Origin: Desulfovibrio sp. A2
GTDB taxonomy: Bacteria; Desulfobacterota; Desulfovibrionia; Desulfovibrionales; Desulfovibrionaceae
NCBI RefSeq assembly: GCF_000226255.1
Contig: NZ_AGFG01000059.1
Coordinates: 1-24,675, forward strand
Length of the DNA stretch: 24,675 bases
Reading direction: 5' to 3'
The position numbers and the translations under genes are program-made. Under the pieces are notes generated by a model. It saw only the letters and a list, made by a program, of their open reading frames with translations, ran no database searches and was not told the origin of the DNA. Below, in pieces: positions 6,540 through 19,818 of this stretch (within the stretch, counting starts at the first letter, position 1; the number at the start of each line of letters is the position of its first letter).

Positions 6540-9050
6540 CTATTCCGCCCAGCGCACCTTCACGCCGTCCATCTTCTTGGCGGTGTAGCTGGCCCGGTCG
6601 GCCCGCTGGACCAGGCTTTCACCCGTGTCGGAGGGGGCCAGCAGGGCAAGGCCCATGCTCAGGTCCACCGCGCCCTTGCAACTGGTCACCACGCCTTCGC
6701 GAATGCGCTTGGCAAGCCCTTCCATGGCCTCGGGCGAGACCTCGGTGACCACTACGGCGAATTCGTCGCCGCCGTAACGGCATGGAAAGTCCATGCCCTT
6801 GCGCACCACCGCGCTGATGCCCGCGGCCACCCGGCGCAGCACGGTGTCGCCCGCCTGGTGTCCGTAGGTGTCGTTGATGGACTTGAACCGGTCGAGGTCG
6901 AAGAAGATCAGCCCCAGCTGGCGGCCGGTGCGGCGGCTGCGTTCCATCTCGCGTTCCAGGATCATGTGGAACTGCGAATGGTTGAACAGCCCGGTCAGGC
7001 CATCGTACATGGCCTGCTGCTTCACCTTTTCCTCCAGGCGGCGGATGCTGGTCAGGTCGCGTCCCACCACCAGGAAGGCCGGGCCATCGTGCTCGCGCGA
7101 ATCCAGCGCGGAAAAGACCAGTTCGAACAGGCCCATGCTGCCGTCGCCCAGTTCCAGCACCGCTTCCACCGGCGCGGCCGGAGAAGCGCCGGACAGGTAG
7201 GCCACGTCCCATGCCTCGGTGAAGGTGGCCGTGGGGCGCGAGACCGCGAACAGGTTCTTGCCCCGCAGGCCCGCGCAGCGGCGTGACGCCCAAGAGACCA
7301 GACCCGCCCGGTCCACGGTGAGCACGATTTCCTGCATGGAGTCCAGCAGCCGTTCCAGAAAGTCGCGCTGGCGCAGGTTCTGCACGTCCACGTCGGATAT
7401 CTCGGTCACGTCCTCGATGAGCAGCAGGGCGTCGTCGTGAGTGGCGTCGCGGCGGCGGTGCAGCGAAACGTAGGCGCACGGGGCCTCCGTGCGCGCGCTC
7501 GCCGCGCCGGAGGGGCAGAACAGGCGGCTGATGAAGGCGGGGCCGTCGTCGGCGGTAAAGGTCTGCCATTCGGGGCCGAAGTCGAAGCCAAGGGCCTCGG
7601 CCAGCAGGGGGCGCACCGGCGTGCGGGGGGGCAGTTCGTCGCGGCCCACGTAGTCCAGGAAGCGCCGGTTGGCCTCCACCAGCAGGCCTTCGCGGTCCAG
7701 CCGGGCCACGCCCAAGGGCAGCGCGTCCAGGGTGTCGGCCTTGGCTTCCAGCACGGCCTGCTGGCGGTAGTAGTTTTCAAGCGCCATGGCCATGAAGTGG
7801 CAGTACACCAGCAGGGCCGACTTGCGCGCCGGGGCCAGGGCGTCCTTGGGCAGGCGCAGTTGGCCCCAGTCGGTGCCGGAGGCGGACAGGGGCACCCGTT
7901 CCTGGCCGGACTGCCACGGCAGCCGCGCGAAGGGGCCGGGACCGGCCTGACGTGGGGTGGGGGTGGTTTCGTCCGCGCTGAACAGCAGATAGTCCTCGCC
8001 GCCCGGCACGCGCAGCGCCACTTCCCATCGCTGCACGTTCCAGTACCAGCGCAGCTGCCGCCCCAGGGTGGCGGCCAGCGAGGGCAGCCCCCCGGCCACG
8101 TGCGACAGTTCCGCCCCCAGGAAATAGAAGGATTGCAGCGTTTCCAGCGACTGTTCGTACAGCCGCGCCCCCACCGGACGGTCCTGGATGGCCAGTTGCG
8201 CCAGCATGGACTTGAAGCGCTGGGCGCAGGATTCGCGCAGGTTTTCCAACGCCTGGTCGTCCAGCGCGAGGCGGGCGCGCAGCAGCATCTCGAACTGGAT
8301 GATCAGCGCGGGGTGGGTGGCCTGGCCGTGCAGCAGGTCGGCCCACTGGGTGCCCAGGATCACCGCCTGGGTCAGCGGCGGGTGGTGGGGCACGCCGTCC
8401 AGGTCGTGGTGGTTGGCGATGGCCTCGGCGATGGCCTCGGGCAGCCCCCACCTGTGGATGATGTTGCGGGCCATGGCCGCGTGGTCCGCGCCCCAGCAGG
8501 TGTTTTCCAGCGAAAGCTGGTCGCGTTCCAGGCTGGTGATGCAGGCCTTGCCGCGCAGCACCGGGTCTTCGTCGGCGGAGCACAGGTGCATGAACAGGGC
8601 AAGGTCTTTCAGCAGGGACGCGAGATAGGCCAGGTGGGCCATGTCGGGCTGCACGCGCAGGGCGATCTGCTCCGCCGCGATGGACGACCAGACCACCAGC
8701 CGCCAGTCCTGGTACATGGCCTGCTGGGGGCGCTTCAGCTCGCTGCTCACCCGCTTCTGGAACGACAGCGACAGGGCCAGCTTGAGGATTTCGCGGGTGC
8801 CCAGCACCGTTGCGGCGCGTTGCAGGTCCGCCACCTTGGTGCCCAGGCCGTAGTAGGGCGAGTTGACCAGATTCAGCACCGCCGCGGCCAGCATGGGGTC
8901 CATGGCCAGGATGCGGGCGATGGTGGAGAATTCCGGAAACGGGGCCACCAGCGCCTGCACCAGTTGCACCATGACCGGGGGAAAGGTGAGTTGCAGGCAG
9001 CGGTTGATGGCTTCTTCGTCGGCCGGTGGCCGACCCTGCGGAGCATTCAT
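6540..9050 (-). CDS. HDOD - PAS - GGDEF signalling protein (putative diguanylate cyclase)
   Basis: An 836-aa protein with no obvious membrane segment. Residues about 10-215 form an HDOD domain (VLNLVNSPYYGL, ILKLALSLSFQ, IAEAIANHHDLDG). A middle region of unclear type follows, then two PAS-like segments (LPLGVARLDREGLLVEANRR; LERLLDSMQEIVLTVDRAG). The C-terminal domain starts near YDGLTGLFNH and has an intact active site, GGDEF at 760-764, plus FFDLDRFKSINDTYGH. The product would be cyclic di-GMP. The inhibitory I-site RxxD expected five residues before GGDEF reads KGMD, so canonical feedback binding is probably missing. Start 9050 has GGAGG 5 nt upstream; an in-frame ATG at 9083 has none. 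The inputs are unknown. Confidence 0.93.
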   Translation of the reverse strand: MNAPQGRPPADEEAINRCLQLTFPPVMVQLVQALVAPFPEFSTIARILAMDPMLAAAVLNLVNSPYYGLGTKVADLQRAATVLGTREILKLALSLSFQKRVSSELKRPQQAMYQDWRLVVWSSIAAEQIALRVQPDMAHLAYLASLLKDLALFMHLCSADEDPVLRGKACITSLERDQLSLENTCWGADHAAMARNIIHRWGLPEAIAEAIANHHDLDGVPHHPPLTQAVILGTQWADLLHGQATHPALIIQFEMLLRARLALDDQALENLRESCAQRFKSMLAQLAIQDRPVGARLYEQSLETLQSFYFLGAELSHVAGGLPSLAATLGRQLRWYWNVQRWEVALRVPGGEDYLLFSADETTPTPRQAGPGPFARLPWQSGQERVPLSASGTDWGQLRLPKDALAPARKSALLVYCHFMAMALENYYRQQAVLEAKADTLDALPLGVARLDREGLLVEANRRFLDYVGRDELPPRTPVRPLLAEALGFDFGPEWQTFTADDGPAFISRLFCPSGAASARTEAPCAYVSLHRRRDATHDDALLLIEDVTEISDVDVQNLRQRDFLERLLDSMQEIVLTVDRAGLVSWASRRCAGLRGKNLFAVSRPTATFTEAWDVAYLSGASPAAPVEAVLELGDGSMGLFELVFSALDSREHDGPAFLVVGRDLTSIRRLEEKVKQQAMYDGLTGLFNHSQFHMILEREMERSRRTGRQLGLIFFDLDRFKSINDTYGHQAGDTVLRRVAAGISAVVRKGMDFPCRYGGDEFAVVVTEVSPEAMEGLAKRIREGVVTSCKGAVDLSMGLALLAPSDTGESLVQRADRASYTAKKMDGVKVRWAE

Positions 9051-9140
9051 GCGCCCCTCCGGCTGTGGGGTTGCGTGGAGCATGGCGTGGCGTGCGGGGC
9101 ATGCGGCGAACCGCGCGCCGGTAAGGCTGGCCCGGCTGAG

Positions 9141-9191: not shown

Positions 9192-10187
9192 CTATGCGCC
9201 GCGATTCAGGACGTAGTCGATGCTTTGCCGCAGGATACGACGTTCCGGGGTGTCGGGCAATGCATCAAGGCACGCCGCCGCCTTGTCCAGGTAGGTTCCG
9301 GCCAGTTCGCGGGTTTTCGCGTCGCAGCCGCGCGCGCGCAGGTCGGCGGTGACGGCGGCCACCGAGGCGTCGTCGAAGGTTCCCTGCCGGAAGCGCGTCA
9401 CGAAGTCGTCGCGTTCCTGCGGAGAAAGGGTTTCAAGGTAGTAGATCAGCGGCGGGGTCAGCTTGCCCTCGCGCAGGTCGCCGCCCACGGGCTTGCCCGT
9501 GTCCTTGGACGAGGCGGCGAAATCCAGCGCGTCGTCCACGATCTGGAAGGCGATGCCGAGGTTCAGGCCGAACCCGGCGGCGGCCGCCACGGCCTCCGCA
9601 TCGGCCTGCGCGGCCAGCGCGCCCAGTTCGCACGAGGCGCGCAGCATCCACGCGGTCTTGCCGGTGATGATCTCGATGTAGGCGTCGTGCCCGTGGTCGG
9701 TGGAGCGCTGGTGGGCGATCTCCACGATTTCGCCGGTGGCCGTCTGCACGATGGCCTCGGCGATGGTTTCGGTAAGCCGGGCGTCGCCGTAGCGGGCCAC
9801 GATGCGGTTGGCCAGCGCCAGCAGGGCGTCCCCGGCCAGCACGGTCTCCGTCTGGCCGAACACGGTGTGCGCGGCGGGCAGGCCGCGCCGCAGGTCCGCG
9901 CCGTCCAGGATGTCGTCGTGCAGCAGGGTGGCCGAGTGCAGCAGTTCCACGGAACACGCCAGCGGGTACAGGTCCGTTCCGGATTTCTTGCGGAACAGCC
10001 CGCTGCCTTCCGCTCCCAACGCCCGCGCGGTGAGCAGGGTCAGCAGGGGGCGCAGCCGTTTGCCGCCAGCGCGCAGCACATGCTCGGCCACGGGGCGCAC
10101 CAGCGGGTGGAGCACGGCCACCTCGGCGTCGAGCGTCTTGTTGATGCGCGGCAGTTCCGTGGCCAGGTAGGCTTTGAGCTTCAGCAT
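9192..10187 (-). CDS. Long-chain polyprenyl diphosphate synthase
   Basis: A trans-isoprenyl diphosphate synthase of 331 aa that condenses IPP onto an allylic diphosphate; the likely product is the menaquinone side-chain precursor. GGKRLRP (41-47) binds IPP. The first Asp-rich motif is DDILD (91-95) and the second DDALD (218-222). The residue five before the first motif is A86; a small residue there is typical of long-chain enzymes, while short-chain FPP/GGPP synthases carry aromatic residues near it. Exact chain length cannot be read. The gene is 71 bp downstream of mqnB on the same strand, which supports a menaquinone role. Start 10187 begins MLKLKAYLATELPRI, the usual family N-terminus; its ribosome site is weak. 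Confidence 0.93.
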   Translation of the reverse strand: MLKLKAYLATELPRINKTLDAEVAVLHPLVRPVAEHVLRAGGKRLRPLLTLLTARALGAEGSGLFRKKSGTDLYPLACSVELLHSATLLHDDILDGADLRRGLPAAHTVFGQTETVLAGDALLALANRIVARYGDARLTETIAEAIVQTATGEIVEIAHQRSTDHGHDAYIEIITGKTAWMLRASCELGALAAQADAEAVAAAAGFGLNLGIAFQIVDDALDFAASSKDTGKPVGGDLREGKLTPPLIYYLETLSPQERDDFVTRFRQGTFDDASVAAVTADLRARGCDAKTRELAGTYLDKAAACLDALPDTPERRILRQSIDYVLNRGA

Positions 10188-10258
10188 GGGAATGTCCGTA
10201 GGGCTTGCGGCAGGGCCGCCGGGTATGTCGCGCGGCGCTGCCGCCGCTGTCCAGAACG

Positions 10259-10978
10259 TCAGTCGGTAAGGAAAAGTTCTCGCGCCAGGCACCCCAGGGC
10301 GTCCAGCGCTCCTTCCAGCGCCCAGTCCTCCGCCGCGCGCGAACCCACGATGTTGGACATGGTGCGCGCCTCGGCAAAGGGCAGGCCGTGGCGCAGGCAG
10401 GCCAGGGCCAGGGCAAAGCCTTCCATGTTCTCCATCAGCGGGCCGTGGCGGCGGCGCATGGCGTCCGCCCGCGCCGGGGTGCCGGAAACGCCGGCCACGG
10501 TCAGCGAAACGCCGTTGCGCGCGGCCTTGGGCATGGAAAGATGCCACTGGCCGAACAGCGCTTCCGGCGCAAGGTCGATGCGGTCCCAGACCGGCCCCGC
10601 CGGGCCTTCGGCCTGCGGAAAGGCGATGCCCCGAGGGTCCACGCCGTCGTCACCGGCCAGGCCGTATTCGGGCCAGACTTCGGCGGACGCAAGCACGGCG
10701 CTGCCCAGCGGGGCGCGCAGCACGTCGAAGGTGCCCGCCACGCCCAGGTTCAGCACGCCGCGCACGCCGCGGTGCGCGCCCAGCACCCGGCCCAGCGACA
10801 AGGCCGCGTTGACCGGGCCCACCCCGGTGACCACCAGCAGACAGTTGCGCCCATTGACGGGCGACGGGCAGGCCTCGCCCGGTCCGGGCAGGGCGCAGCC
10901 CACGCGGCCACGCCCGTTGAAGCCGGTGAGCACGGCCTTCATTTCACGGGTGGTGGCGGTGGCTATGACAAGGCTCAT
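10259..10978 (-). CDS. mqnB: Futalosine hydrolase (menaquinone biosynthesis)
   Basis: A nucleoside-phosphorylase-fold hydrolase of 239 aa that cleaves futalosine to dehypoxanthine futalosine in the futalosine pathway to menaquinone. Visible signatures: VVTGVGPVNAA near 49-59, LNLGVAGTF, and the catalytic block MENMEGFALALACLRHGLPF followed by RTMSNIVGSR. MTA/SAH nucleosidases have related blocks, but the MENMEG form and the adjacent polyprenyl synthase favour MqnB. It starts 48 bp after the UGA-containing gene and is 71 bp before the polyprenyl synthase, so the three are probably cotranscribed. No strong Shine-Dalgarno is seen at this start, which could mean translational coupling. Confidence 0.88.
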   Translation of the reverse strand: MSLVIATATTREMKAVLTGFNGRGRVGCALPGPGEACPSPVNGRNCLLVVTGVGPVNAALSLGRVLGAHRGVRGVLNLGVAGTFDVLRAPLGSAVLASAEVWPEYGLAGDDGVDPRGIAFPQAEGPAGPVWDRIDLAPEALFGQWHLSMPKAARNGVSLTVAGVSGTPARADAMRRRHGPLMENMEGFALALACLRHGLPFAEARTMSNIVGSRAAEDWALEGALDALGCLARELFLTD

Positions 10979-11026: not shown

Positions 11027-11446
11027 TTATCGTTTGCGCAGCAGCAGGCGCAAATGCCCGTCGGCGGTGGCGCAGGGCATGCCCAGCACGTCGGCCTGGC
11101 GCACCCGGGCGATGTGCCGGGCGCTGCCCATCTGGCTGGGCGCGATGTCCAGCAGCAACTGCCCGCCGGAAGGCATGGACCGCAGAAGCGAACTCGCCTC
11201 CTGCAGGCCCCGTCAGCAGTCGTCCCAGCACAGCACCACCGGCACGTCGCGGGGGGGCAGTTCGCACAGCAGGGTGCCGCGCGGAATGCCCGGCATCAGC
11301 GCGCAGGCCGGGCCGGTGGGCGAGTCGTCCGTCTTGCCCAGGCTGTCGTCGGCCTGTTCCTTTTCCGCCGTGCGGCGCAGGGCCGCGCGCAACATGGCGT
11401 CGTCCGGCGGGGGGGGCAGGCGTTTGCGGCGTTGGCTGGCGAGCAT
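11027..11446 (-). CDS. Putative TusA/SirA-like selenoprotein with in-frame UGA at codon 78
   Basis: Not annotated by a standard code, which would end it at 11213 after 77 residues. The same frame continues from the UGA (11213-11215) for 61 codons to a TAA at 11027-11029, and 55 of those codons end in G or C, matching its neighbours. Reading UGA as selenocysteine gives 139 aa. The N-terminal 60 residues are charged and probably disordered. From about residue 64 the pattern is strand (PVVLCWDDC-U), helix (RGLQEASSLLRSM), strand (GGQLLLDIA), helix (GSARHIARVRQADVLG), strand (DGHLRLLLRK). This matches the TusA/SirA fold, including the closing DG..R.L.RK; C77 falls 14 residues before M91, as the catalytic Cys does in E. 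coli TusA. U78 would replace the following Pro. A hairpin suited to SECIS follows the UGA. It lies 47 bp after the dehydrogenase gene and 48 bp before mqnB. A TGG-to-TGA nonsense mutation is the main alternative. Confidence 0.6.
11177..11215 (-). promoter_or_regulatory. Candidate bacterial SECIS element after the UGA
   Basis: Counting from the base after UGA, positions 4-18 can pair with 23-36. There is one C-U mismatch at 6/34 and one bulged G at 16, leaving an apical loop AGUU at positions 19-22 (11191-11194). Known bacterial SECIS hairpins sit in the coding sequence just after the UGA with a small loop containing GU; the E. coli fdhF loop begins at a nearly identical distance. The fold was drawn by hand, and GC-rich DNA makes chance hairpins common. 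Confidence 0.45.
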
Positions 11447-11493
11447 GTGCGTCCCGATGTCCTTTGGGGCCGGATGTGCGCGGCGAGGCCCCG

Positions 11494-12810
<1,317 letters not shown>

Positions 12811-13090
12811 GTCGTTCTCTCGGATGGGTATCGTGTGCCCGGTGCTTGTCGGCGCGTGTTGGCGCGCGCCTGATGCCGCTCCGGGCCGGTTCATTGTCGT
12901 TTTCTGCCGTCCGGGCAGGCATGCTGCATGCCCCTGTCCCGGCGTGTCCCGGCGCGTCCCGCTGGCCCGTTCTGCCTCGTCCTGTCTCGTCCTGCCGCGT
13001 CCGGCGGGCGGCCTGCCCCTGCGCTTGCGGGCGCACAACCCATGGCGGCAGGGGCTTGCCACGGGCGGGGGCTCCGTGTGAGAAGGCCCC
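12811..13090. other. Divergent intergenic region with degenerate 10-bp repeats
   Basis: This 280-bp gap separates the minus-strand dehydrogenase from the plus-strand DUF2065 gene and should hold both promoters, though none is convincing. TGTCCCGGCG occurs twice in tandem at 12935-12954, followed by CGTCCC. At 12971-13000 three consecutive 10-mers are variants of CCTGYCTCGT. I see no coding signal. Confidence 0.6.
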
Positions 13091-13297
13091 ATGCATATTG
13101 ACTGGAATACGCTGCTCTGCGCCCTGGGCCTTGCCTTCGTCATCGAAAGCGTTCCCTACGTCCTGTTCGCCGAACGGATGCGCCCCGTGTTGCGGTCGCT
13201 GTCCGACCAGCCCCCGGCGGTGCTGCGGGCCATGGGCCTTGCCGCCATGTGCGTGGGGGTGCTGGTGGTCTGGCTGGCCCGGCGCGCCCTGTCCTGA
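13091..13297 (+). CDS. DUF2065 family (YjeT-like) small membrane protein
   Basis: A 68-aa protein with two hydrophobic helices: about residues 8-27 (LLCALGLAFVIESVPYVLFA) and 46-62 (AMGLAAMCVGVLVVWLA), joined by a basic, polar loop containing SLSDQPPAVLRAMG. This is the DUF2065/YjeT pattern of an E/P-containing first helix, a short 'L.D.P...LR..G' linker and a second helix. Function is unknown. AAGG lies 4 nt before the ATG. It is the only plus-strand gene in the left and central part of the window and converges on ubiE. Confidence 0.82.
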   Translation: MHIDWNTLLCALGLAFVIESVPYVLFAERMRPVLRSLSDQPPAVLRAMGLAAMCVGVLVVWLARRALS

Positions 13298-13385: not shown

Positions 13386-14537
13386 CTAGCGGGCCTTCTT
13401 GCCTGCCTTCGCGCCGCCCGTGGCGCGTTTCTTTTTGGTTGCATCCTTCGCGGCCGCGCCGGGCAGGGTGGCCTGCACCGCGCTCCGCGCGGCGGCCGTC
13501 TTGCCGCCCCTGGTCTTGCCGGTGACGGCGGGCGCGGCGGTCGATGCGTCCGATTCCGCGATGGGCGGGGCCTGCGGAGCCGCGATTGGAGCCTCAGCCG
13601 GGGGCTCGGTGGTGGGTGCCGTTTCCACGGTCGCCACGGGGACTGCCTGGGACTTCGCGACGGTTGCCTTCCCGCGCGTCTTGCCGGTGGAGGGTTCCGC
13701 CCCGGCCGTGCCGGAACCGGCCCGCCTGTCCACGCCGCCCGCGCGGGGTTTTTCCGCCACGTGCAGGCGCACGATGCCCGAGGTCAGCGGCAGGTGGAAC
13801 ACCCGGCCAAAGCCCGCCGCCGTCATCTCCCCGGCCAGTTCGTCCGCCGTGGGAAAGGCCATGATGGTGTCGGCCAGGTAGCGGTAGGCCCCGGCATCGC
13901 CGGAAACGGCCTTGCCCACCAGCGGCAGCAGCCGGTTCAGGTAGAAATTGTACAGTCCGCGCCACACCGGGGTCTTGCCGGTGCCGAATTCCAGCACGCA
14001 CAGCCGCCCGCCGGGCACCAGCACCCGCAGGATTTCGGCAAAGGCCTCCGCGCGGGGCACGATGTTGCGGATGCCGAAGGCGATGGTCACGCAGTCCACG
14101 CTGGCGTCGGCCAGGGGCAGGCGGCGTCCGTCGGCCGTGACGGGCCAGATGGCGCGCGCCGTTTCGCCGAACAGCTTGCCCCGCCCCCGTTGCAGCATGG
14201 GGCGGCAGAAGTCCAGCGCGGGCACGCGCACGCCGGGGTGCTGGCGCATGATTTCCAGCGAAACGTCCAGGGTGCCCGCCGCCAGGTCCAGCACGCGGCC
14301 GGTGGGGCCGGGCGTCACGTGGCGCACCAGGCGGTGCCGCCAGTACATGTCCAGCCCGCCGCTGAGCACGCGGTTCAGCAGGTCGTACCAGTCGGCGATG
14401 CGGCCGAACATGCCGGAAACGCTGCGGGCGTGCCCGCACGGGTCGGGCGCGCGGGGGGCGTCCTGTGTGGCGTTTCCGGCGGGCGCGGAACTGTCGGCGG
14501 CGGGGGCGCCTTCGCAGGTGGCGGCGGTGCGGTGCAT
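13386..14537 (-). CDS. ubiE: Demethylmenaquinone methyltransferase UbiE/MenG with long basic C-terminal tail
   Basis: SAM-dependent methyltransferase for the last step of menaquinone synthesis. The core spans residues about 40-263: SGMFGRIADWYDLLN, SAM motif VLDLAAGTLDVSL (85-97), AFGIRNI (153-159), GGRLCVLEFG, LYNFYLNRLLPLVG and AYRYLADTI are family hallmarks. The SAM loop reads GTLD where GTGD is usual. Residues about 264-383 form a tail rich in Ala, Pro and Lys, containing TGKTRGK and TGKTRGGK and ending KAGKKAR; the family normally stops near 230-260 aa. The first 40 residues are also low-complexity. GGAG lies 9 nt before the ATG. It begins 6 bp after the stop of the 68-aa gene, so the two form an operon. 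Confidence 0.93.
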   Translation of the reverse strand: MHRTAATCEGAPAADSSAPAGNATQDAPRAPDPCGHARSVSGMFGRIADWYDLLNRVLSGGLDMYWRHRLVRHVTPGPTGRVLDLAAGTLDVSLEIMRQHPGVRVPALDFCRPMLQRGRGKLFGETARAIWPVTADGRRLPLADASVDCVTIAFGIRNIVPRAEAFAEILRVLVPGGRLCVLEFGTGKTPVWRGLYNFYLNRLLPLVGKAVSGDAGAYRYLADTIMAFPTADELAGEMTAAGFGRVFHLPLTSGIVRLHVAEKPRAGGVDRRAGSGTAGAEPSTGKTRGKATVAKSQAVPVATVETAPTTEPPAEAPIAAPQAPPIAESDASTAAPAVTGKTRGGKTAAARSAVQATLPGAAAKDATKKKRATGGAKAGKKAR

Positions 14538-17042: not shown

Positions 17043-17435
17043 CTAGCTATGGCACTTCGAGCCCTTGCAGCCCGTCAGTTCCTTTTTCTTGGCGGCGTCG
17101 GCGCCGGCGGCTTCAAGGTGGCAGCCCACGCAGGTCTTGAACTTGGTGCCCTTGTCATGCATGGCGTGGTAGTAGCCCTTGGCGGACTTGTCCTTCTTGT
17201 CCATGCTGTCGTGGCAACCGGCGGTGGCACACTTCTGGTAGTCTTCCTTGCCGTTGACCGGATGGTGGCAGTCGCCACACTTCACGGCCTTGTGGGTCGA
17301 GTGGTTGAAGACCACGGGCTGCTTGGTCTTGTCCATCTTCAGGCCATCGGCGGGGGCCTTCGGAGCAGCGGCAAGGGCGGGCATGGCAATGGCGACGGCC
17401 AGCGCGAGCACGCCAGTGAGGAACATTTTCTTCAT
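17043..17435 (-). CDS. cycA: Tetrahaem cytochrome c3, type I, periplasmic
   Basis: Small periplasmic electron carrier of sulfate reducers that accepts electrons from periplasmic hydrogenases and formate dehydrogenases and passes them to membrane complexes. The 130-aa precursor has a signal peptide [23 protein letters not shown], cleaved before A24, giving a 107-aa mature protein beginning [10 protein letters not shown]. Four haem sites are seen: CGDCH, CATAGCH, CVGCH and CKGSKCH, two of them the CxxxxCH type usual in this family; further His (for example HSTH, HH) supply distal ligands. From memory it is almost identical to the Miyazaki F protein with a few substitutions. Start 17435 is fixed by AAGGAGG 10 nt upstream. 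A strong promoter and terminators flank it as a single-gene unit. Confidence 0.98.
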
Positions 17436-17483
17436 TGCTGAAATACCTCCTTCACAAGGCATGTTAAGGATTTCCCAAGCGCC

Positions 17484-17740: not shown

Positions 17741-17758
17741 TTATTTTTCGGCCGCGCC
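17732..17758 (-). repeat. 8-bp inverted repeat with the cobJ stop codon in its loop
   Basis: GGCGCGGC (17732-17739) and GCCGCGCC (17751-17758) are perfect complements, and the 11-nt AT-rich loop contains the last codons and TAA of cobJ. It may act as a terminator or protect the 3' end. Confidence 0.5.
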
Positions 17759-18562
17759 CTTTCTGCGCGCGCCGTCGGGGGCATATTTGTCCAGGTAGCC
17801 GCGCGGGGTGACCATGCGGTTTCCCACCATGCCCGTGGCCCCGTTGCCGATGATGACGATGGACAGCATGTCCACCGTTGCCGGGTCGAAGGCGGCAAGC
17901 GGCGTCACCGATACCTGTTGGTCGGGCCGGTAGGCCTGGCGCACTAGGCCCACGGGGGTTTCCGGCCCACGGTGGCGGGCGGCGATGGCCAGCGCCTTTT
18001 CCAGGTGGTCGGCCCGGCGGCGCGAGCGGGGGTTGTAGATGACCACCACGAAATCCGCGCCAAGGGCCGCTTCCAGGCGGCGTTCGATGACCGGCCACGG
18101 CGTGAGCAGGTCGCTCAGGCTCACCGAGGCGAAGTCGTGCATCAGCGGCGCGCCCAGCAGGGCGGCGGCCCCGCACAGCGCGGGCACGCCGGGCACCACC
18201 TCCACCGTGTCGGCCAGTTCGGCCAGTCCGGTCAGTTCGGCCCGTTGCGACAGGCCACGCTGTGCCAGCAGTTCGAAGACCAGACCGGCCATGGCGTACA
18301 CGCCGGGGTCGCCGGAGCAGACCACGCAGGTGGCGCGCCCGGCCAGCGCGGCGTCGATGGCGGCATTGCAGCGTTCCACCTCGGCCATCATGCCGGTGGC
18401 CAGCACCTCGCGGCCGTGGCGCAGGTCTTCCGGCACCATGTCCACGTACAGGGTGTAGCCGACGATGCACTGGGAACCGGCGATGGCCGCGCGGGCCTGG
18501 GGAGTGAGCAGGGCGGCGTCGCCCGGGCCGAGCCCGACGACGCGCAGGGGGGCAATGGTCAT
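17741..18562 (-). CDS. cobJ: Precorrin-3B / cobalt-factor III C17-methyltransferase
   Basis: SAM-dependent methyltransferase of corrin ring synthesis (CobJ/CbiH); it methylates C17 and drives ring contraction. 273 aa. Signatures: VVGLGPGDAALLTPQA (8-23), VGYTLYVDMV, VCSGDPGVYAMAG, VVPGVPALCGAAALLGAPL, VVIYNPRSRRR and SIVIIGNGAT are those of the tetrapyrrole methylase family, with YNPRS and IIGN specific to CobJ/CbiH. It overlaps the cbiG stop by 4 bp (ATGA), so the pair is translationally coupled. Pairing with CbiG points to the anaerobic (early cobalt insertion) route. The stop codon lies in the loop of an 8-bp hairpin (17732-17758). Confidence 0.94.
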   Translation of the reverse strand: MTIAPLRVVGLGPGDAALLTPQARAAIAGSQCIVGYTLYVDMVPEDLRHGREVLATGMMAEVERCNAAIDAALAGRATCVVCSGDPGVYAMAGLVFELLAQRGLSQRAELTGLAELADTVEVVPGVPALCGAAALLGAPLMHDFASVSLSDLLTPWPVIERRLEAALGADFVVVIYNPRSRRRADHLEKALAIAARHRGPETPVGLVRQAYRPDQQVSVTPLAAFDPATVDMLSIVIIGNGATGMVGNRMVTPRGYLDKYAPDGARRKGAAEK

Positions 18563-19818
18563 GATGGGGTCTCGCTGGATGCGTGTGGGAAAGGGGTGCG
18601 GGGCCGGGCGGCATGGGCGTCGGGCACGGCGGCCACGGCCACGGTGACGCCCCGCGCGGCGGATTTGGGAAGCAGCAGGGTGGGCGCACCGCCCGCTTGC
18701 CGGGCGGACAGCAGGGCGGCGGCCTCGGCCACGCCCACTTCGGCCACGCCCAGCACTTCCGCCGCTTTCGGGGATGGATGGGGCACCGGCACGGCGGCAA
18801 GGCTGGCGGCGTCGAAAAAGTGCAAGGGTGCGCCCAGCGCGGCGGCGGCCTGGCGCAGGCCCGGCTCATTGGCCTTCAGGTCCGCCGAGGCCAGCGCGGC
18901 GATGGCGGCGGGGGCAAGGTTGGCCCCGGCCAGCGTTTCGCGGATGCGCGATTCGATGACCGCTCCGTCCACGCCGCGCCGGCAGCCCACGCCCACGTGC
19001 AGCACCCGGGGGTGCAGCACCAGGCGACGCGGGGCGGCAAGGTGGGCGTGCGGGGTGACCAGCACCGTGGCGGCGTCGGGCGGGAGGTCGCCGGGGGCGT
19101 CCACGAAGCGGAAAATGGGGGCCGGGCGGGCGGGGGAAGACGCGCCGCCGTAGGCATCGCCTGCGGCATCCGCATCGGTCTGGTCAGGCGCGGAGTAAGT
19201 GCCGCGCAGGCCCAGCCGGTCGCCGGGGTCGCATATCCACACCGTTTCCCCGGCCAGCAGCGCGCCGTTGACGTGGCGGACCATGGCGATGTCGGCCATG
19301 GACAGCCCGGCCCGCGCGGCCAGCAGGTCCAGCGAGGGCAACCCCTCGGTGTCCGTGGCCGTGGTGATGACCGCCGTGCCGCCGGTGGCGGCGGCCACCC
19401 GCAGGGCAAGGTCGTTGCCGCCGCCGAGATGCCCCGACAGCAGGCTGATGGCGTGCGCGCCGCGCTGGTCGCAGACCACCACGCACGGGTCCTGCGCCTT
19501 GGAGGCGATGTGCGGGGCGATGCAGCGCACCACGATGCCCGTGGCCGCCACGAAGACGTGGCCCGGATGTTCCCGGAAGGTGCGCGCCACCAGTTCCGCC
19601 AGCGAGACGAAGGGCTGGGCGCTTGATGTGTCCGGCACTCCGTCCGCGTCCGTATCGCCCGCGCCCGCCGTTGCGGCGTGCGCCGCGCACAGTCGTTCCG
19701 GCAGGTACAGCACCCCGCCCAGCGCCCCGGCAATACGCCGTGCCAGCGCCGCCCCGCCGGGGGTCAGCGCGTAGACGGCCAGCGGCCGCGCGGATGCGTG
19801 GGGGGGCGTGTGGGGCAT
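18559..19818 (-). CDS. cbiG: Cobalt-precorrin-5A hydrolase
   Basis: Opens the delta-lactone of cobalt-precorrin-5A, releasing acetaldehyde, in anaerobic cobalamin synthesis. 419 aa. N-terminal part: FVAATGIVVRCIAPHI, KAQDPCVVVCDQRGAHAISL and LLSGHLGGGNDLA. C-terminal part: LHVGVGCRRGV and EVLGVAEVGVAEAAAL. These are CbiG hallmarks. A variable region between the two (about 215-250) is Asp/Ala-rich. No good ribosome site precedes 19818, but the N-terminus (LAVYALTPGGAALARRIA) is right for the family. No cobalamin-riboswitch core box was found in the 247 bp upstream. Confidence 0.93.
   Translation of the reverse strand: MPHTPPHASARPLAVYALTPGGAALARRIAGALGGVLYLPERLCAAHAATAGAGDTDADGVPDTSSAQPFVSLAELVARTFREHPGHVFVAATGIVVRCIAPHIASKAQDPCVVVCDQRGAHAISLLSGHLGGGNDLALRVAAATGGTAVITTATDTEGLPSLDLLAARAGLSMADIAMVRHVNGALLAGETVWICDPGDRLGLRGTYSAPDQTDADAAGDAYGGASSPARPAPIFRFVDAPGDLPPDAATVLVTPHAHLAAPRRLVLHPRVLHVGVGCRRGVDGAVIESRIRETLAGANLAPAAIAALASADLKANEPGLRQAAAALGAPLHFFDAASLAAVPVPHPSPKAAEVLGVAEVGVAEAAALLSARQAGGAPTLLLPKSAARGVTVAVAAVPDAHAARPRTPFPHASSETPS

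Follow-up and report, generated by a model that had tools for sequence, protein, structure and literature searches.

The minus strand of the window, i.e. the whole analysed stretch of 24,675 nucleotides from Desulfovibrio sp. A2, carries a small gene with an in-frame UGA at codon 78 that almost certainly encodes selenocysteine (Sec). The evidence for this reading consists of the conserved in-frame UGA, a covarying hairpin, coding selection on both sides, the Sec machinery and the predicted fold. As a whole, the gene is probably best explained as a selenoprotein of the TusA/SirA fold with a candidate reactive Cys-Sec pair, from a family present in no list found. Annotation pipelines split this small gene at its internal UGA. 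Its features are as follows:

11027..11446, minus strand: candidate TusA-like selenoprotein gene, ATG 11446-11444, 139 residues with Sec78, TAA 11029-11027
11213..11215, minus strand: in-frame TGA, candidate Sec78, next to Cys77 (TGC); based on ortholog conservation
11030..11245, minus strand: predicted TusA-like core domain, residues 68-139, beta-alpha-beta-alpha-beta-beta; based on AlphaFold2 and fold matches
11249..11446, minus strand: N-terminal extension, about residues 1-66; among collected members in the own genus only
11460..11465, minus strand: AAAGGA, possible ribosome-binding site; in the same place in 7/7 same-genus genes, the window's included

Gene structure and conservation of the UGA

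The preliminary description of this DNA gave no strand; the gene lies on the minus strand (11446-11027), and the plus strand of 11027..11446 reads as a different, Ala/Gly/Arg/Gln-rich peptide. The frame itself is as described there, with 77 codons including the ATG, TGA at 11215-11213, 61 codons and TAA, the UGA being directly 3' of the Cys77 codon. Codons with a final G or C number 71 of 77 upstream of the TGA and, as previously counted, 55 of 61 downstream. The reported MxxG spacing (Met91-Pro-Ser-Gly, 14 residues past Cys77) and C-terminal pattern are likewise present, the protein closing with ADGHLRLLLRKR.

Seven genomes of the genus were searched besides the own genome; six contain the full gene, and the seventh (G002) is cut by a contig end. 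All six complete orthologs possess TGA at the identical codon, and one TGA each. Within the genus, dN/dS 3' of the TGA is 0.11 (227 synonymous vs 76 nonsynonymous differences, all pairwise comparisons among seven sequences added up), and 23 of the 34 variable columns after the TGA are third codon positions. The 27 codons before the TGA display 18 synonymous and no nonsynonymous differences. Relatives from other genera keep the TGA at 29-41% identity over the aligned part. The TGA conserved in orthologs and other genera, together with the dN/dS of 0.11, indicates that the reading frame across the TGA is more than chance.

The window protein as query matched 49 of 247 genomes of the taxonomic family. 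Forty-six of these matches passed a pattern filter that required Ser at U+7, G or A at U+2, Cys before U and either C or G at U-5, so the invariance of these residues in the first alignment is partly by construction. Outside the pattern set are L009 (contig end), L043 (G165; without the motif, it looks spurious) and L058 (G020; Gly at U+7). A profile of 27 short members matched 53 of the 247 genomes, with exactly one in-frame TGA and, on reading of all matches, CU at the aligned position in 53/53. Common to all 53 are also [DE]CUxG and a Cys at U-5, and Ser occupies U+7 in 52. Among them are seven remaining profile matches that were read without the pattern, with Cys at U-5, CU and Gly at U+2 in 7/7 and Ser at U+7 in 6/7. 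The 39 first-collected members outside the own genus are short, 73-83 residues with 11-19 codons before the UGA (starts chosen by the analyst); the extension of ~60 residues is therefore particular to the own genus in the collected set.

Over the phylum, the first profile matched 21 of 395 genomes, with one TGA in each, and a wider profile matched 32, of which 31 have one TGA. CU at the aligned position is found in 30 loci (the window's own included) and in G545. The 32nd match, G405 (E 8.5e-5), is an ordinary TusA with CPVP and no in-frame stop. For broader alignments 17 wider relatives were taken by motif pattern from 20 loci, leaving aside L076, L077 and L078. Wider members bear DYRxDCUx[GA][FY] or DSRxDCUK and similar motifs; the Cys at U-5 is a feature of Desulfovibrionaceae members. 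After the Cys-Sec pair, nearly every member read continues with xG or xA; L145 has CUKP. From its sequence relatives, the window gene looks like part of a phylum-wide family of sulfate-reducing and related bacteria (Desulfobacterota); the ortholog alignment earlier proposed as a check finds the UGA kept in genus, family and phylum.

SECIS-like hairpin and Sec machinery

A stem-loop follows the UGA, as anticipated when a SECIS search was proposed, and it covaries:

11177..11210, minus strand: bacterial SECIS-like hairpin, upper stem 11199-11195/11190-11186, loop AGUU 11194-11191, lower stem 11210-11206/11181-11177
11192..11194, minus strand: Ser85 codon AGT, in the hairpin loop; AGT in 50/53 family members

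The window hairpin folds at -19.8 kcal/mol (z -2.43; 7 of 200 shuffles fold as well). The model used for counting adds a sixth upper pair, 11200-11185, and 42 of 46 members form all six pairs, in either of two registers that start 12 bases past the UGA and have AGUU or AGUUNN as loop. Compared to synonymous recoding, z is below -1.5 in 40 of 46 members (mean z -2.34). Six of seven members read later also form six pairs; the standard stem is absent in L041, L044 and L053 of the 46 and in L159 of the seven. Pair counts, which leave out L041, L044 and L053 and so cover loci fitting one of the two loop registers (L073 and L075, whose loops differ, are kept), amount to 99.3% of cells paired with 18 double-change cells in the six-base-loop set (25 sequences), and 100% paired with 48 double-change cells in the four-base-loop set over the phylum (33 distinct sequences). 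The covariation score, paired cells and double-change cells are reached by 0 of 500 shuffles in both sets. Pairs with double changes are reached by 355/500 (six-base loop) and 45/500 (four-base loop), and further pair types by 459/500 and 386/500, respectively. Slid versions of the stem pair in 33-63% of cells.

Elsewhere AGT is rare: it accounts for 8 of the 201 remaining Ser codons when 46 of these genes are counted, and for 3 of 259 across 11 genes of the window. Its retention at Ser85 despite this rarity suggests that the base sequence itself is conserved, as expected of a loop bound by SelB. In wider members the loop is often a different one, e.g. GGUC. Rfam yields nothing at the gathering threshold on the window.

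In a third clade (L148-L155, L164; DSRxDCUK and similar) the hairpin loop starts with GG, not AGUU. SECIS-like folds also occur after the UGA of a formate dehydrogenase gene and of selD in the own genome.

A search for the sel genes, another check earlier proposed, finds selA, selB, selD and tRNA-Sec in the genome: SelA (613.6 bits), SelD with its own TGA (356.1 bits), the SelB C-terminal domain and tRNA-Sec (80.2 bits). Two formate dehydrogenases with one TGA each serve as positive controls. SelB occurs in 49 of 53 gene-positive family genomes vs 206 of 247 overall (P 0.06), the four genomes in which it was not found all being fragmented (430-810 contigs). In the phylum search, it occurs in all 31 Sec-gene genomes vs 347 of 395 overall; tested on all 32 profile-positive genomes, i.e. 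the 31 plus G405, P is 0.02. Genomes were matched to SelB lists by eye, and the co-occurrence has the expected direction but is weak.

Database relatives and the reading of the UGA

Against 5.8 billion proteins, the first profile finds 10 matches, all of them pieces of 45-58 residues 3' of the UGA, one titled 'sulfurtransferase TusA family protein [Maridesulfovibrio bastinii]'. The wider profile finds 34 matches, 17 of which are full-length with Trp at the Sec position and 17 again post-UGA pieces. The earlier expectation of a 77-residue stub with loss of the functional domain is thus correct in that standard calling stops at the UGA, but in relatives the databases hold the piece behind it.

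The same records could be taken for a true stop, with the gene either a pseudogene or a short upstream peptide followed by noncoding sequence, since standard calling ends at the UGA and public databases carry pieces starting past it. The probability of this is next to nil: the UGA is conserved over the phylum, dN/dS past it is low, the predicted fold is continuous across it, the covarying hairpin follows it, and the short members would be left with just the 11-19 codons before it (with analyst-chosen starts). The 17 full-length relatives with Trp would in turn suggest that UGA is read as tryptophan in these lineages, a reading that can practically be disregarded as well. The contigs that carry these 17 measure 506 to 1601 bases, a setting in which code 4 may be selected by metagenome gene callers, and the Trp forms are presumably translations of this kind; the post-UGA pieces lie on contigs of up to 541,887 bases. 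Orthologs with TGG, named earlier as a refuting result, are missing among the genome matches, every Sec-family match having TGA, and Trp is confined to the 17 database proteins. In addition, many members also use TGA as their final stop, and both Sec machinery and SECIS-like hairpin are present. Pseudogene, true stop and Trp codon are consequently rejected on conservation, dN/dS, fold, hairpin and the TGA in all genome matches.

A close Cys homolog occurs neither among the 10 and 34 database matches, all of which were read, nor among the Sec-family genome matches. Because the protein-database search depends on short words in common with the query, a Cys form may exist elsewhere; canonical TusA proteins would be distant Cys relatives. 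According to the accessible part of a 2025 paper, Cys homologs now seem to exist for every known selenoprotein (PMC12013277); given this statement, the absence of a close Cys relative counts against the reading as a Sec family.

Predicted fold and position of Sec

The AlphaFold2 model consists of one small domain plus the extension, which is mostly of low confidence. Ten-residue blocks in the core score 92-96, except for 79 at residues 121-130. The beta-alpha-beta-alpha-beta-beta fold is present in the predicted model, and VIA-align placed the YeeD/TusA group on top; on this basis a TusA-like fold is very likely. With Foldseek alone nothing reaches E 0.001: much of its list consists of methyltransferase and other folds, other folds being among the first rows, and YeeD/TusA chains appear at ranks 3, 13, 19, 21 and 35.

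At the sequence level, four of the 27 members match the Pfam TusA model (PF01206) with E values no higher than 0.1, the best at 27.9 bits (E 2.1e-6) vs a cut-off of 28.6. The comparison of the wider-member alignment with a two-sequence TusA profile by hhalign is negative; the wider Sec profile matches the CPVP TusA of G405 and thereby reaches canonical TusA. The window protein has no Pfam or NCBIfam match at E up to 5, short and wider members match NCBIfam at chance level only, and PDB sequence searches with two family alignments return only zinc-finger and synaptotagmin chance matches. In the own genome, PF01206 matches another locus only (C76) and not the selenoprotein gene. A protein search with this TusA-like piece gives no candidates, and a PDB search with two TusA-like sequences gives one SirA-like chain, too little for a better TusA profile.

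TusA (E. coli YhhP) is a sulfur carrier acting with IscS. The present family differs from it in the Cys-Sec pair and in the best Pfam score below the cut-off, and the members read have CUxG, CUxA or once CUKP instead of CPxP, which makes them TusA-like rather than canonical TusA. The original assignment to TusA holds for the predicted fold, but not for the CPxP motif; the profile evidence on it is mixed. As to the proposal that Sec takes the place of the Pro next to the catalytic Cys, the helix-side alignments favour it, while the strand side (DxxGDCU, wider clade) and equal fold offsets would allow Sec on the Cys itself. Overall, Sec rather likely occupies the Pro position of TusA and not the Cys position.

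Genomic neighbourhood

The gene is surrounded in the window by the following frames:

10259..10978, minus strand: futalosine hydrolase MqnB (menaquinone pathway), next gene downstream; TIGR03664 180.7 bits, cut-off 124.7
9192..10547, minus strand: polyprenyl diphosphate synthase frame; several polyprenyl synthase models, each below its own cut-off; near the gene in relatives
11494..13143, minus strand: nucleotide-sugar dehydrogenase, preceding gene (open frame, start not fixed); TIGR03026 391 bits, cut-off 189.8
13386..14537, minus strand: MenG/UbiE-type demethylmenaquinone methyltransferase, further upstream; TIGR01934 207.7 bits, cut-off 158.35

The true start of the polyprenyl synthase frame lies lower, because its upstream part overlaps mqnB. 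Directly behind this frame, at 6540-9083 (minus), is a gene for a long protein that presumably begins with an HDOD-like part and ends with a GGDEF-like one; the gene has the same place in L082 and L089 of the same genus. Other parts of the window contain a frame for what is presumably a small secreted protein resembling tetrahaem cytochrome c3, with several haem motifs of the CxxCH type (17043-17462, minus), and two overlapping frames that presumably belong to the cobalamin pathway (CobJ/CbiH-like and CbiG-like; 17741-19818, minus).

The order dehydrogenase - selenoprotein gene - MqnB is found in 29 of 46 loci, window included. The polyprenyl synthase often follows, and MenG is situated further upstream where the locus reaches it. 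In 16 of 46 loci, all from one genus (g8), an S1-domain protein precedes the gene and a TauE/SafE exporter follows it; the longer of these loci also show, further up, a double-cubane-cluster reductase and a CoA-dehydratase activase. The 46th locus (L053) has neither setting. In five of 20 wider loci a LysR regulator is located just upstream. Two of these LysR genes were tested against NF040786, 'selenium metabolism-associated LysR family transcriptional regulator', and score 269.7 and 259.2 bits (cut-off 250); one of the two loci (L104) has yedF about 3 kb from the member. The accessible part of PMC5322559 links the NF040786-type regulator subfamily to selenium use.

In genus g8 (L093-L096, L085) the double-cubane-cluster reductase (NF040772, 496 bits in L093) is near the gene, and the activase is so in most; similar gene types are named in a Slackia selenium cluster (PMC5322559, accessible part). 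In the wider relatives L060, L062-L064 and L068, an opposite-strand DUF4198 gene adjoins, with a molybdopterin oxidoreductase beyond it in longer loci.

In 10 of 23 loci inspected, the gene ends within an ATGA that also contains the mqnB start. This overlap, the order in the 29 loci and the selenium-metabolism LysR regulators in front of one clade would fit a UGA that mainly acts as a selenium-sensing switch for the next gene (mqnB in many Desulfovibrionaceae), the protein being secondary or a feedback element: at low selenium, ribosomes would stop at the UGA and miss the downstream start codon, and less of the next product would be made. This is very unlikely to be the main function, as 48 bases separate stop and mqnB start in the window, the downstream gene varies between clades, and the post-UGA protein is under coding selection with a conserved predicted fold. 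Another reading, also quite unlikely, is a Sec-only family that serves as dedicated chalcogen carrier or selenium-status sensor. A Cys version would be missing here because Sec arose beside the reactive Cys, replacing a structural Pro and not the catalytic Cys. The overlap of the stop with the next start in a number of species would allow UGA reading to gate mqnB translation as well, and respiration would then be tied to selenium supply via mqnB.

Possible function

Returning to the preferred reading of a TusA/SirA-fold selenoprotein, SelB and tRNA-Sec would insert Sec at the UGA as directed by the SECIS hairpin just downstream. Cys77 and Sec78 would place a thiol and a selenol side by side where helix 1 begins, at the site of the sulfur-carrying Cys of TusA. 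This pair may be the reactive site and would most likely serve in the handling of selenium or sulfur, either by carrying S or Se as persulfide or perselenide or by cycling through a Cys-Sec bridge. A chalcogen carrier is our tentative choice, a little short of evenly balanced against all other roles; handling of chalcogens is favoured by two neighbours from different clades, the selenium regulator and the exporter of the sulfite type.

The same selenoprotein might instead be a thiol/selenol redox enzyme, e.g. a small reductase or peroxidase with a Cys-Sec bridge, of which the GCUG tail of mammalian thioredoxin reductase is an example. The xG or xA after Cys-Sec in nearly all members read would agree with this, as would the further Cys at U-5 in 53/53 family members (the pattern for 46 allowing only C or G there). 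Known TusA-fold proteins, however, are mostly sulfur carriers, and neither the TauE/SafE exporter in 16/16 loci of one genus nor the selenium regulator beside another clade is a typical redox partner. A redox role is accordingly regarded as rather unlikely, though the 2026 review, in its accessible part, considers most uncharacterised selenoproteins likely redox proteins (PMC13188914).

Relation to known systems and selenoprotein catalogues

YeeD (TsuB) is the TusA-like partner of the thiosulfate transporter YeeE (TsuA). Beside the window gene no YeeE-type transporter was recognised; one genus has the adjoining TauE/SafE exporter. YedF, the selenium-metabolism SirA-DsrE fusion (TIGR03527), resembles the family in its TusA-like domain and its link to selenium. 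It differs in its DsrE part, for which the window protein has no match, and the YedF of L104 has CPAP and an open frame without TGA. The 'SirA-like' proteins in the accessible parts of PMC2432076 and PMC5322559 are YedF, which is not a selenoprotein. SaoL, SaoC, HgcA, MbdU and KCU-star share the motif CU in the table of PMC13188914, as far as accessible, but are listed there under other domain models.

This 2026 review counts 119 selenoprotein families and, in its accessible part, has none under PF01206, TusA or SirA (PMC13188914). Likewise, none of the eight selenoproteins in the 2006 D. vulgaris list is TusA-like in the part accessible (PMC1794560), nor, by name, is any of the nine new families of deep-Sep, among whose test genomes were two from Desulfovibrionia (PMC12013277, accessible part). 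Our search of the literature on TusA/SirA-like selenoproteins, outside subscription papers and preprints, found nothing on this Cys-Sec family, which is apparently undescribed. Without close Cys homologs, it would be dropped by finders relying on Cys/TGA pairs; the deep-Sep authors state, in the accessible text, that their homology filter may discard cases lacking Cys homologs (PMC12013277).

The selenoproteomes of sulfate reducers and related Desulfobacterota have been catalogued repeatedly; the gene brings to them a selenoprotein family that is apparently undescribed. The delivery of selenium in cells is incompletely understood, as the accessible part of the 2026 review says with respect to SelD (PMC13188914). 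A TusA-like Cys-Sec protein, encoded directly behind a selenium regulator in one clade, would be a concrete candidate for this delivery.
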